DNA of 64,000 nt from NCBI RefSeq assembly GCF_000247605.1, contig NC_016894.1:930001-994000 (forward strand), read 5' to 3'. Numbering within the stretch: position 1 is the stretch's first letter; each line of letters starts with the position of its first letter. The notes beneath the pieces were generated by a model. It was not told where the DNA came from. It searched no databases and was given only the letters and a program-made list of their open reading frames with translations. The position numbers were made by a program, and so were the translations under genes. This document shows positions 7,805 through 53,244 of the stretch, one piece after another. Source of the DNA: Acetobacterium woodii DSM 1030. GTDB taxonomy: Bacteria; Bacillota; Clostridia; Eubacteriales; Eubacteriaceae.

Positions 7805-7824
7805 TTTTCAAACTAAAAACAAAT

Positions 7825-7936
7825 AAACTCCGAGCAAAAGTGTCTAAGGGATTAATTTCTATGATGCTGCGCTAAAGCATTTTAGCTTTCGGGTTAGACT
7901 GGAAACGGTATAGCCTTCCGATTTTGAAAAGGAGCA
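7825..7936 (+). promoter_or_regulatory. Probable molybdenum/tungsten-cofactor (Moco) riboswitch
   Basis: A structured leader lies between a strong promoter and moeA. ACTCC (7827-7831) can pair with GGAG (7931-7934), closing the domain and masking a Shine-Dalgarno-like site. Inside, ACTG-GAAA-CGGT forms a stem capped by a GNRA tetraloop, while CTAAG and TATG upstream resemble an 11-nt tetraloop receptor. The Moco RNA class is known to combine a GNRA loop and its receptor, and it precedes Moco synthesis genes. The class is assigned from this architecture and the context, not from a covariance search. Confidence 0.6.
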
Positions 7937-8158
7937 TTAATTACAAATGTGTGAACGTGCGTACGAAGTATTTTTTGTGGTGCCTGGCTTTCTTTTCGAT
8001 AATGAAAAAGGTGTCTTTTTTTGTGATTGGTATCAGTGGTTGAGACAATTTACTGACAGATACAGGAGAAATCATAAAAATGTAAGCCACCGTAATTTCT
8101 GGAGTTTTGGTTTTTTGTCGTTGATGAAAATAAAACATGAGAAGAAAGAGGCGGTTAG
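7937..8158 (+). other. Remaining moeA leader (expression platform, no convincing gene)
   Basis: Between the riboswitch and moeA lie 222 nt with a 77-codon frame from ATG 7947, placed 12 nt after the AAAGGAG that the riboswitch can mask. The frame overlaps the moeA start by 22 nt and its product resembles nothing I know. Further on, GTATCAGT (about 8030) can pair with ACTGACAGATAC, followed by AGGAG and an ATG-TAA start-stop pair at 8080-8085. This looks like a regulatory platform, perhaps with leader translation. Confidence 0.4.
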
Positions 8159-14345: not shown

Positions 14346-14442
14346 GGGGATAGATGGGTGCTGGTGTGTCCTCTGGTCTTCAAAACCAGTGTGAGTAGTG
14401 AATAACTGCTTAGGTGGGTTCGATTCCCACATATTCCCGCCA
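14346..14442 (+). tRNA. selC: tRNA-Sec (selenocysteine, anticodon TCA)
   Basis: A 97-nt tRNA with a long acceptor, a long variable arm (about 14390-14413) and the anticodon loop CTTCAAA, which gives TCA at 14380-14382 to read UGA. The T arm is GTGGG-TTCGATT-CCCAC and CCA is encoded at 14440-14442. It lies between selAB and the HDCR genes, next to its only clear target here, fdhF2. Confidence 0.95.
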
Positions 14443-34611: not shown

Positions 34612-34800
34612 TAAAAAAAAGAGATGTCTCACGGAGACATCCTCAAATTGTAGTCAAAGTAGGTTATCGGATCGACAACGGTTAATCAGGTTGTTTGCAT
34701 CAGAGCGGACATGGCCTTAGCCTGTCCGATTCTGCAGCAAACAACCGATTAATCGTTGTCAGTTTGTTGCTAACCTCAGGATATCTCAATGAGACATCCT
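34612..34800 (-). repeat. Terminator-flanked structured repeat, copy A
   Basis: It lies 11 nt after the 3' end of the HdeD-like gene, on its strand. The first hairpin (34779-34799, GGATGTCTC / GAGATATCC) is followed by the conserved core at 34681-34756 and by a second hairpin of nearly the same sequence (34623-34641, GATGTCTC / GAGACATC) with a run of eight T, a real terminator. Core stems: ACAACG-ATTAATC with GATTAACCGTTGT, TTGTTTG with CAAACAA, CGGACA with TGTCCG. An outer AGGTTA/TAACCT stem encloses it. The same element occurs at 46.0, 47.9 and 51.4 kb. Confidence 0.8.
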
Positions 34801-46007: not shown

Positions 46008-46238
46008 GAGATACTTATAAATAAGTATCTCTGAGGTTGTCGATAAACGACCGTACCGATCAATTGTTAATCTGTTGCATGCACACAATTCGTACAGTTG
46101 CAGTCAAAGATTTAGATAAGGACAGCCTTTTCGCTGCAACTGTTCGCCTTGAGGCACACAACATGATCTAACAATTATCGGTACTACGTTCCCTTTTTTG
46201 ACAGTTTGCGAGATACTTTTAAATAAGTATCTCTTTTT
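46008..46238 (+). repeat. Terminator-flanked structured repeat, copy D (divergent)
   Basis: It begins 26 nt after the DUF1638 gene. Hairpin GAGATACTTATAAATAAGTATCTC (46008-46031) and its near copy at 46210-46233 with TTTTT bracket a folded core (46053-46184). Core stems: GTACCGATCAATTGTTA with TAACAATTATCGGTAC, and ACAGTTGCAG with CTGCAACTGT. The junction GATAAAC...CGTACCGA matches copy B, but the apical part differs, so this is a distant family member. Confidence 0.7.
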
Positions 46239-47843: not shown

Positions 47844-47859
47844 AATTGTAAGACCAAAA

Positions 47860-48041
47860 AAGCACCCTTGGGTGCTTTGAAGTTGGCGATAAACCCGTAC
47901 CGACACTTATTAATCGTTTGTTTGCTACAGAATCGGACAGGCTAAGGCCATGTCCGCTCTGATGCAAACAACCTGATTAATAAGTGTCAGTACTAGCAGT
48001 TTACTTTGTCGGCAGTCCGAGAGCACCCAAGGGTGCTTTTT
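47860..48041 (+). repeat. Terminator-flanked structured repeat, copy B
   Basis: It lies 16 nt after murE. AAGCACCCTTGGGTGCTT (47860-47877) and GAGCACCCAAGGGTGCTTTTT (48021-48041) flank the core 47913-47987. Stems: ACACTTATTAATC with GATTAATAAGTGT, TTTGTTTG with CAAACAA, CGGACA with TGTCCG. The outer hairpins end in T runs on both strands, so the element also terminates the convergent xth gene, whose stop codon lies at its edge. Confidence 0.85.
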
Positions 48042-51424: not shown

Positions 51425-51440
51425 CGTTGGCAACTAAAAA

Positions 51441-51637
51441 AAGACCGATTCAGGTCTTTCAGACGGCAGACAAAGGGCCTGCTATATCAATCAATAATGA
51501 GTTAGGGCTCAGACTCTTATTAATCGTTTGTTTGCTGCAGAATCGGACAGGCTAAAGCCGTGTCCGCTCTGATGTAAACAACCTGATTAATAAGGGTTTG
51601 AGTCCAACCACAAAGACTGTATTCGGGTCTTTTTTTA
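51441..51637 (+). repeat. Terminator-flanked structured repeat, copy C
   Basis: It lies 16 nt after the carbonic-anhydrase-like gene. Hairpins AAGACCGATTCAGGTCTT (51441-51458) and AGACTGTATTCGGGTCT (51614-51630, with seven T) flank the core 51508-51602. The core apex is almost identical to copies A and B, including GCAGAATCGGACAGGC and TGTCCGCTCTGATG. The basal stem CTCAGACTCTTATTAATC pairs with GATTAATAAGGGTTTGAG. It separates convergent genes. Confidence 0.85.
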
Positions 51638-52848: not shown

Positions 52849-53019
52849 AGTGAACTCCTTTTATATTTTTCAGAGATTAAGCTGATATCTTTATTATACC
52901 CGATATTCTTAAGTTTTTGAATAAAGATTCCAAAAAACTTGATTTTATTAAGGATATTGGATAGAATATGTAACAGACCTTTTTACTTGTAAAACAGCAT
53001 AACAAAATAAGCAGATTAA

Positions 53020-53244
53020 ATGTAATGACAAGGACGCTTTGGGCTAAGCTTTAACAGAGAGATAATCGTTTGGTGAAAGATTATTAAAAGCTCCCTCAAA
53101 GAGATCACCTTTGAATAGGATTTCTGAAATGGTCACAATAGGAAATCACGGGGAATCGTTAAATTCATAAGAGTGGGCAATTTTTGCCAACTTGGGTGGT
53201 ACCGCGATTTTTCGTCCCTTGGATTTTTTCAAGGGGCTTTTTTT
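53020..53244 (+). promoter_or_regulatory. T-box leader of ileS (tRNA-Ile)
   Basis: A tRNA-sensing riboswitch. The AGAGAG/GGTGAAAG motifs of stem I are near 53060-53090, a specifier candidate ATC (Ile) lies at 53104-53106, and the T-box TTGGGTGGTACCGCG lies at 53193-53206. The terminator GTCCCTTG / CAAGGGGC plus seven T (53214-53244) follows. Uncharged tRNA-Ile would stabilise the antiterminator and turn on ileS. Confidence 0.92.

Follow-up and report, generated by a model that had tools for sequence, protein, structure and literature searches.

Four hairpin-bounded repeats lie at gene ends in a 64,000-nt stretch of the Acetobacterium woodii DSM 1030 chromosome (the window; contig NC_016894.1, positions 930,001 to 994,000 of the forward strand). 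Very probably these repeats are MITEs (non-autonomous transposons) belonging to an IS1182-type transposon with intrinsic terminators as its targets, and the paired hairpins that enclose them would be target-site duplications. The sequence features on which this picture rests are a multi-copy family, hairpins that are specific to each locus, relatives with empty sites, a tip shared with the transposon, and the same duplication around the transposon itself. A preliminary description of the window had listed a mobile palindrome targeting terminators among the possible roles of these repeats, and copy number, locus-specific repeats, empty sites and the shared tip all support that role. When two similar terminators enclose a conserved fold, the arrangement can be a scar of transposition and not an RNA design.

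A repeat family at gene ends

The four copies, A to D, have the layout given in the preliminary description: a hairpin (H1), a core that folds, and a second hairpin (H2) that nearly repeats the first and is followed by a T run (Table 1). Their folds are more stable than those of 200 dinucleotide shuffles, with z scores of -11.8 (A), -12.4 (B), -8.6 (C) and -10.3 (D), and the native folding energy was matched by 0 of 200 shuffles for each copy. The apical motifs said to be common to A, B and C are seen in the sequences. Each copy does sit shortly past a gene stop on the strand of that gene, the first hairpin starting about 10-25 nt after the stop.

Table 1. Parts of the four copies, in window positions
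Feature	Position	Strand	Basis or remark
Copy A, H1, first terminator hairpin copy	34778..34800	-	sequence
Copy A, mobile element proper, short-core, 134 bp	34644..34777	-	homology to family
Copy A, H2, second hairpin copy; T run 34613-34620	34621..34643	-	sequence
Copy D, H1, first terminator hairpin copy	46008..46031	+	sequence, flank comparison
Copy D, mobile element proper, long-core, 176 bp	46033..46208	+	genome search, comparison of long-core copies
Copy D, H2, second hairpin copy, followed by T run	46210..46233	+	sequence, terminator scan
Copy B, H1, first copy of murE terminator hairpin	47859..47878	+	no T run after it on +; terminator-like on -
Copy B, mobile element proper, short-core, 141 bp	47879..48019	+	boundaries from tip homology
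Copy B, H2, second terminator hairpin copy with T run	48020..48041	+	sequence, terminator scan
Copy C, H1, first terminator hairpin copy	51440..51459	+	sites in relatives; terminator-like on - strand
Copy C, mobile element proper, core flipped to +	51460..51611	-	tips only 71% and 65% alike
Copy C, H2, second hairpin copy with T run	51612..51633	+	sites in relatives; absent from terminator scan list

Further copies, for which the preliminary description had proposed a search, were found at many places in the A. woodii genome (4.04 Mb, one contig). A DNA search with copy B identified the short-core type at 25 distinct places, counted as clear matches with the views from both strands merged. A search with copy D, in which 40 of 71 candidates were scored, identified the long-core type at 40 or more distinct places. 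No place is on both lists, so that the whole family occupies at least 65. The short-core form, about 140 bp long, comprises copies A, B and C, and the long-core form, 176 bp long, is represented in the window by copy D. The grouping of all four copies into one family stands in that the tips and outer arms of the two forms are related, but copy D belongs to a second subfamily with a longer core and more places. The elements are short (mostly 134-176 bp), multi-copy and without a transposase gene. Among 30 long-core copies with both tips, 25 are exactly 176 bp, and pairwise identity is 82-99%; the ten places beyond these 30 were counted without being taken into the alignments, and the long-core alignment excludes two copies with deletions (L089 and L097). 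At the DNA level, 17 of the 19 Acetobacterium genomes, that of A. woodii among them, have matches to the element. Outside the genus, 2 of 82 other genomes match, each over only about 25 nt.

Some copies show internal rearrangement. In copy C the end motifs have the - orientation and the core the + orientation. For L006, L013 and copy C alike, core and end motifs run in opposite directions, as though the inner palindrome had turned round within the element. At another place (L016 and L019; G000:C1:3109039-3109287) a stretch of about 45 bp separates two short-core copies of like orientation. A 30-codon reading frame in the long-core loop, at element positions 47-136, is open in all 25 copies of 176 bp. 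A peptide encoded by this frame was considered and rejected, as the changes at the three codon positions (45, 57 and 61) carry no codon-position signal.

By a simple rule on open reading frames, 54 of the 55 A. woodii copies examined are placed between convergent or tandem genes and one between divergent genes. In the 42 copies with a called flanking repeat (see below), at least five A are found in the 8 nt before H1 in 28 and at least five T in the 8 nt after H2 in 29, while no copy has such a T run after H1. A consensus terminator scan listed H2 of copy B on the + strand only and its H1 on the - strand only; for copy C it listed H1 on the - strand and missed H2, and for copy D it listed H2. 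These terminators are presumed to function.

Flanking hairpins and empty sites

The conserved part of 30 long-core copies ends between the hairpins. The flanking hairpins vary among loci and agree within one locus. Five opposite-strand views of places already counted and two distant matches (L047 and L048) were removed beforehand, which left 83 loci; 60 with both tips at least 60% alike were kept, and 23 without recognisable tips were dropped. In local alignments of the left flank with the right flank of the 60 copies, the mean direct-repeat score is 28.6 within loci and 12.6 between loci. The score exceeds the 99th percentile of mismatched flanks in 42 copies, one of which (L002) has doubtful boundaries and may be a chance case, and falls below this threshold in 18. 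Of the 42 repeat-bearing copies, 38 have no more than 2 nt between repeat and element on the left side and 37 on the right, and the palindrome centre coincides with the repeat centre in 30. In 23 well-scoring copies the flanking repeats differ at 42 of 558 positions, or about 3.8% per branch.

The direct orientation of the flanks scores higher in 44 of the 60 copies and the inverted orientation in 14, and copies A, B and C are among these 14. In copy B the loops of the two hairpins are complementary. We tentatively read A, B and C as older copies that may have undergone flipping of the hairpin, to which palindromes are prone. Their inverted flanks are the sole feature that would also fit co-evolution by pairing.

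Comparison of the same gene ends in related species indicates that the terminator exists without the element and is doubled in filled sites. The carbonic-anhydrase gene adjoining copy C has an orthologue in all 19 genomes of the genus. Inspection by eye identified an element between two hairpins at this gene end in four genomes (A. woodii, G003, G011 and G006) and one hairpin without an element in the other 15. The hairpin at these element-free sites resembles the A. woodii terminator in nine and has another sequence in six. The murE gene next to copy B also has an orthologue in 19 of 19 genomes. By eye, its end carries an element in five, with differing subtype and orientation, a single terminator in four, and, in a further four (L100, L101, L105 and L106), two terminator copies separated by a different or degenerate insert. 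The remaining six do not fall clearly into any of these classes, owing to contig ends, different neighbours, or related cores that lack two distinct hairpins. Because MurE is about 67-79% identical between species, filled and empty sites are not comparable base for base. Three of these four inserts (L101, L105 and L106) hold a GC-rich palindromic repeat of the GGGCGAATGCGATTCGCCC type, perhaps nested in an old MITE.

Tips and target duplication shared with an IS1182-type transposon

Two loci among the IS1182-family transposase loci of the genus (L155, from genome G012, and L140) share the tips of the repeat. Both carry CAGACTGTCAAA at both ends, and both are flanked by a duplicated palindrome. 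The right end of the MITE, CTTTTTTGACAGTCTG, is the exact complement of the transposon end CAGACTGTCAAAAAAG at 16 of 16 positions; the left end is a moderate match to the transposon tip, with 11 of 15 positions identical. A 20-nt end pattern with up to three mismatches occurs at 32 places in the genome, at least one of which (L283) looks like chance, and the reversed control occurs at none. The L155 transposase scores 362.5 bits on the IS1182 model NF033551 (cut-off 270) and contains the domains DUF772 and DDE_Tnp_1_6. Its closest match in A. woodii is a fragment with 49% identity and an in-frame stop; apart from this fragment, a search with the L155 transposase found no intact matching transposase in that genome. 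The copies in A. woodii would have been moved by an L155-type transposase. Other IS1182 subgroups of the genus (L138, L141, L143 and L147 types) were rejected as partners on inspection by eye, as their tips differ. Three IS1182-family loci (L138, L154 and L139) belong to another subgroup, and two of these are in A. woodii with open frames. At the L154 copy an A run leads into one tip and the other tip leads into a T run, as if a terminator hairpin had been replaced. Relics of hairpin-replacing and of hairpin-duplicating elements may coexist in the same genome.

Whole-hairpin duplication is also found around the transposon across Clostridia. Species-representative genomes were scanned with the L155 protein, and the best 80 of 195 relatives were kept. 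Eight of these loci are cut at contig ends, which leaves 72 testable, and 12 of them do not have both terminal repeats, so that 60 were used. These 60 are not all from independent genomes, as nine lie on one chromosome at separate targets. Flanking direct repeats occur in 43 of the 60 loci, and the maximum score in a mismatched control of 3540 flank pairs is 8; an earlier, looser search for boundaries gave a repeat in 44 of 73 loci. The repeats are 19-64 nt long with a median of 29 nt. All 43 are hairpins with z below -3 against shuffles, compared with 1 of 43 for the sequence just outside, and the palindrome centre is at offset 0 from the repeat centre in 40. Both the target and its duplication are thus the same for the two kinds of element, with repeats at 42 of 60 MITE copies and 43 of 60 transposon copies. 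The remaining 17 transposon loci have no called repeat. Ten of them have flush hairpins at both ends, different from each other by eye, and six have a flush hairpin at one end; the chance of a hairpin at a random position is 0.054. Such non-matching hairpins are expected if copies recombined after insertion. In the ten loci where each end is flush with its own hairpin (L188, L191, L195, L196, L199, L202, L203, L208, L209 and L215), they likely mark recombination between copies.

Target-site duplications are normally a fixed few bases long and reveal the stagger of the transposase. Here the repeat length follows the structure of the target. A fixed stagger is hard to reconcile with these repeats because their length is that of the hairpin and their centre is the palindrome centre. 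A duplication whose length tracks the hairpin is sequence evidence that DNA secondary structure is targeted by the IS1182 family, for which the literature consulted documents hairpin removal. The target hairpin would be extruded as a cruciform, and the transposase would join the 3' ends of the element to the 5' foot of each arm. Repair would then copy both arms, so that insertion duplicates the entire hairpin and the element comes to lie flush between two host copies of the terminator. As read from the sequence, the A run is kept before H1 and the T run after H2, leaving each strand with one complete terminator, and the element becomes part of the 3' untranslated region. Its effect on the host should be mild, since the A run still precedes H1 and the T run still follows H2.

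A broader reading, on which our confidence is evenly divided, is that a whole subgroup of DDE transposases reads DNA secondary structure instead of sequence or a fixed stagger and joins the transposon to both feet of an extruded cruciform, that its duplications have no fixed length and are the hairpin itself (19-64 nt), and that a duplicated terminator is a self-restoring safe site. Terminators being common hairpins, such elements would duplicate, and so preserve, the one that is hit. If so, MITEs could spread to dozens of gene ends in one genome. Duplication of the target hairpin would also explain how many copies can lie at gene ends without loss of termination. These elements could further serve to examine by experiment whether terminators are extruded as cruciforms in the cell.

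RNA function and comparison with known systems

The preliminary description took covariation among the copies as a sign of RNA structure. The covariation itself is real. Among 36 pairs compared over 22 short-core copies (12 from A. woodii and 10 from relatives), 15 show changes in both partners, a number reached by 0 of 500 shuffles, with the structure derived from the same alignment on which it was scored. RNA structure as the function remains unproven, as G-U and A-C pairs are alike in number, and selection on the transcribed strand would give more G-U than A-C in stems. The short-core helix has 13 G-U and 16 A-C pairs, or 7 and 7 when turned to the transcribed strand, which are small numbers. 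The long-core arms have 6 and 6 in element orientation, and 5 and 4 with tandem copies turned to the transcribed strand, which are likewise few. A structured noncoding RNA, either an sRNA or a 3' UTR element, that needs two matching terminal hairpins which pair at long range and co-evolve would account for the strong folds of copies A to D, the covariation, the pairing of H1 with H2 in three of four minimum-energy folds, the higher inverted score of A, B and C, and the slower evolution of the long-core arms relative to the loop and tips. We consider it highly improbable, because direct repeats score higher in 44 of 60 copies against 14 for inverted ones, the corresponding gene ends of relatives carry a single hairpin without an element, the orientation and subtype at one site vary between species, G-U pairs are about as many as A-C pairs, and the copies match no Rfam family at gathering score.

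The slower arms also bear on a reading that overlaps with the MITE interpretation, in which the element is a MITE by origin and its core hairpin has since been co-opted by the host as a 3' end stabiliser or a source of sRNA. Change in the long-core arms runs at about half the rate of the tips and loop, a difference that is not expected from simple neutral decay of an inserted copy. Private substitutions number 25 in 100 arm columns compared with 42 in 76 columns of tips and loop (p 0.002; L085, whose right end is replaced, was left out). The divergence of the flanking repeats, about 3.8% per branch in 23 copies, and a position that would put most copies in a transcribed 3' UTR also favour adoption. 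Paired and unpaired columns of the arms, however, change alike (0.0096 and 0.0078), and the pairing has no strand bias. The same pattern could result from palindrome correction, from the choice of copies by BLAST, or from constraint on the source copies; in a near-palindrome, such correction or the demands of transposition can hold the two arms similar. Adoption by the host is therefore an unlikely, though not negligible, addition to the history of these elements.

A further reading accepts mobility at terminators and assigns it to another enzyme, such as a Y1/RAYT transposase, a group IIC intron or an IS110-type recombinase, so that the likeness to the IS1182 tip would be coincidental. Hairpin targeting is known for several types of element, and the A. 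woodii genome yielded no intact matching transposase, both of which count for it. It seems very doubtful, since one tip is identical to the IS1182-type tip at 16 of 16 positions and the unusual duplication of a whole hairpin is found around the IS1182-type transposon as well. To our knowledge, none of these three kinds of enzyme duplicates a target of 20-60 nt.

The terminal hairpins of the skipping-rope RNA are said to resemble each other, and the preliminary description was reminded of this motif. The likeness did not hold. Among the 31 genomes searched with RF02924, A. woodii has no match at E<=1 (104 of 130 candidates were scored), and 0 of 19 genomes of the genus have one over the cut-off; four weak matches (E 0.2-0.7) occur in three of them. 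Copies B, C and D have no match to RF02924 at E<=10. The model passes its cut-off in one genome of the same order (L059), where inspection by eye identified a single terminator, no duplicated hairpin and promoter-like sequence upstream. The idea that skipping-rope RNAs are themselves such scars is not supported by this match, with its one terminator and no duplication. At gathering thresholds, Rfam has no family at the copies; its matches in the window lie elsewhere and are a T-box leader (53016-53222), a molybdenum/tungsten (Moco) riboswitch (7816-7950), a selenocysteine tRNA (14346-14438) and a tRNA. Copies B, C and D searched against Rfam at E up to 10 gave nothing apart from a sub-threshold microRNA match, mir-2820 on the - strand of copy B (27.8 bits, cut-off 84, E 0.011), which we take as chance.

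For the IS1182 family, the direct repeats recorded in ISfinder vary widely in length. Given these records, and since key reviews of insertion sequences lie outside the literature compared, we claim no priority for whole-hairpin duplication. In the parts consulted of the literature on hairpin or terminator targeting and IS1182 (including PMC5678879, PMC4923244, PMC3852290 and PMC10969869), we found no report of whole-hairpin duplication by IS1182 elements beyond one hypothetical branch of a model, in which duplication of a whole stem-loop is drawn (Fig 13, pathway b, of PMC5678879). A review cited in PMC5678879 and PMC4923244 is quoted there for palindromic targets of some IS1182 members. The MITEs paired with ISMac2 (IS1182) in Methanosarcina acetivorans are 160-169 bp long, with direct repeats given as 4 and 0 in the portion consulted of PMC3852290. 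These are likewise MITEs with an IS1182-family partner and of similar size, but their repeats are not whole hairpins.

IS1272 and TnSha1, members of the IS1182 family in staphylococci, have a hairpin target that is set by structure and not by sequence, with terminators among the targets, and on insertion the hairpin is lost wholly or partly without duplication, according to the sections consulted of PMC5678879 and PMC4923244. In contrast to IS1272 and TnSha1, which remove the target hairpin, the elements described here duplicate it whole. No hairpin loss of the IS1272 kind was seen at the murE and carbonic-anhydrase gene ends, where the hairpin is present twice in filled sites and once in empty ones. 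The closest counterparts are the IS1182 transposons of the L155 subgroup in Acetobacterium wieringae and clostridial relatives, which have the same one tip, the same duplication of the whole target hairpin and the same flush insertion. The A. woodii elements differ from these transposons in their small size (mostly 134-176 bp), in having no transposase and in their long, near-palindromic core.
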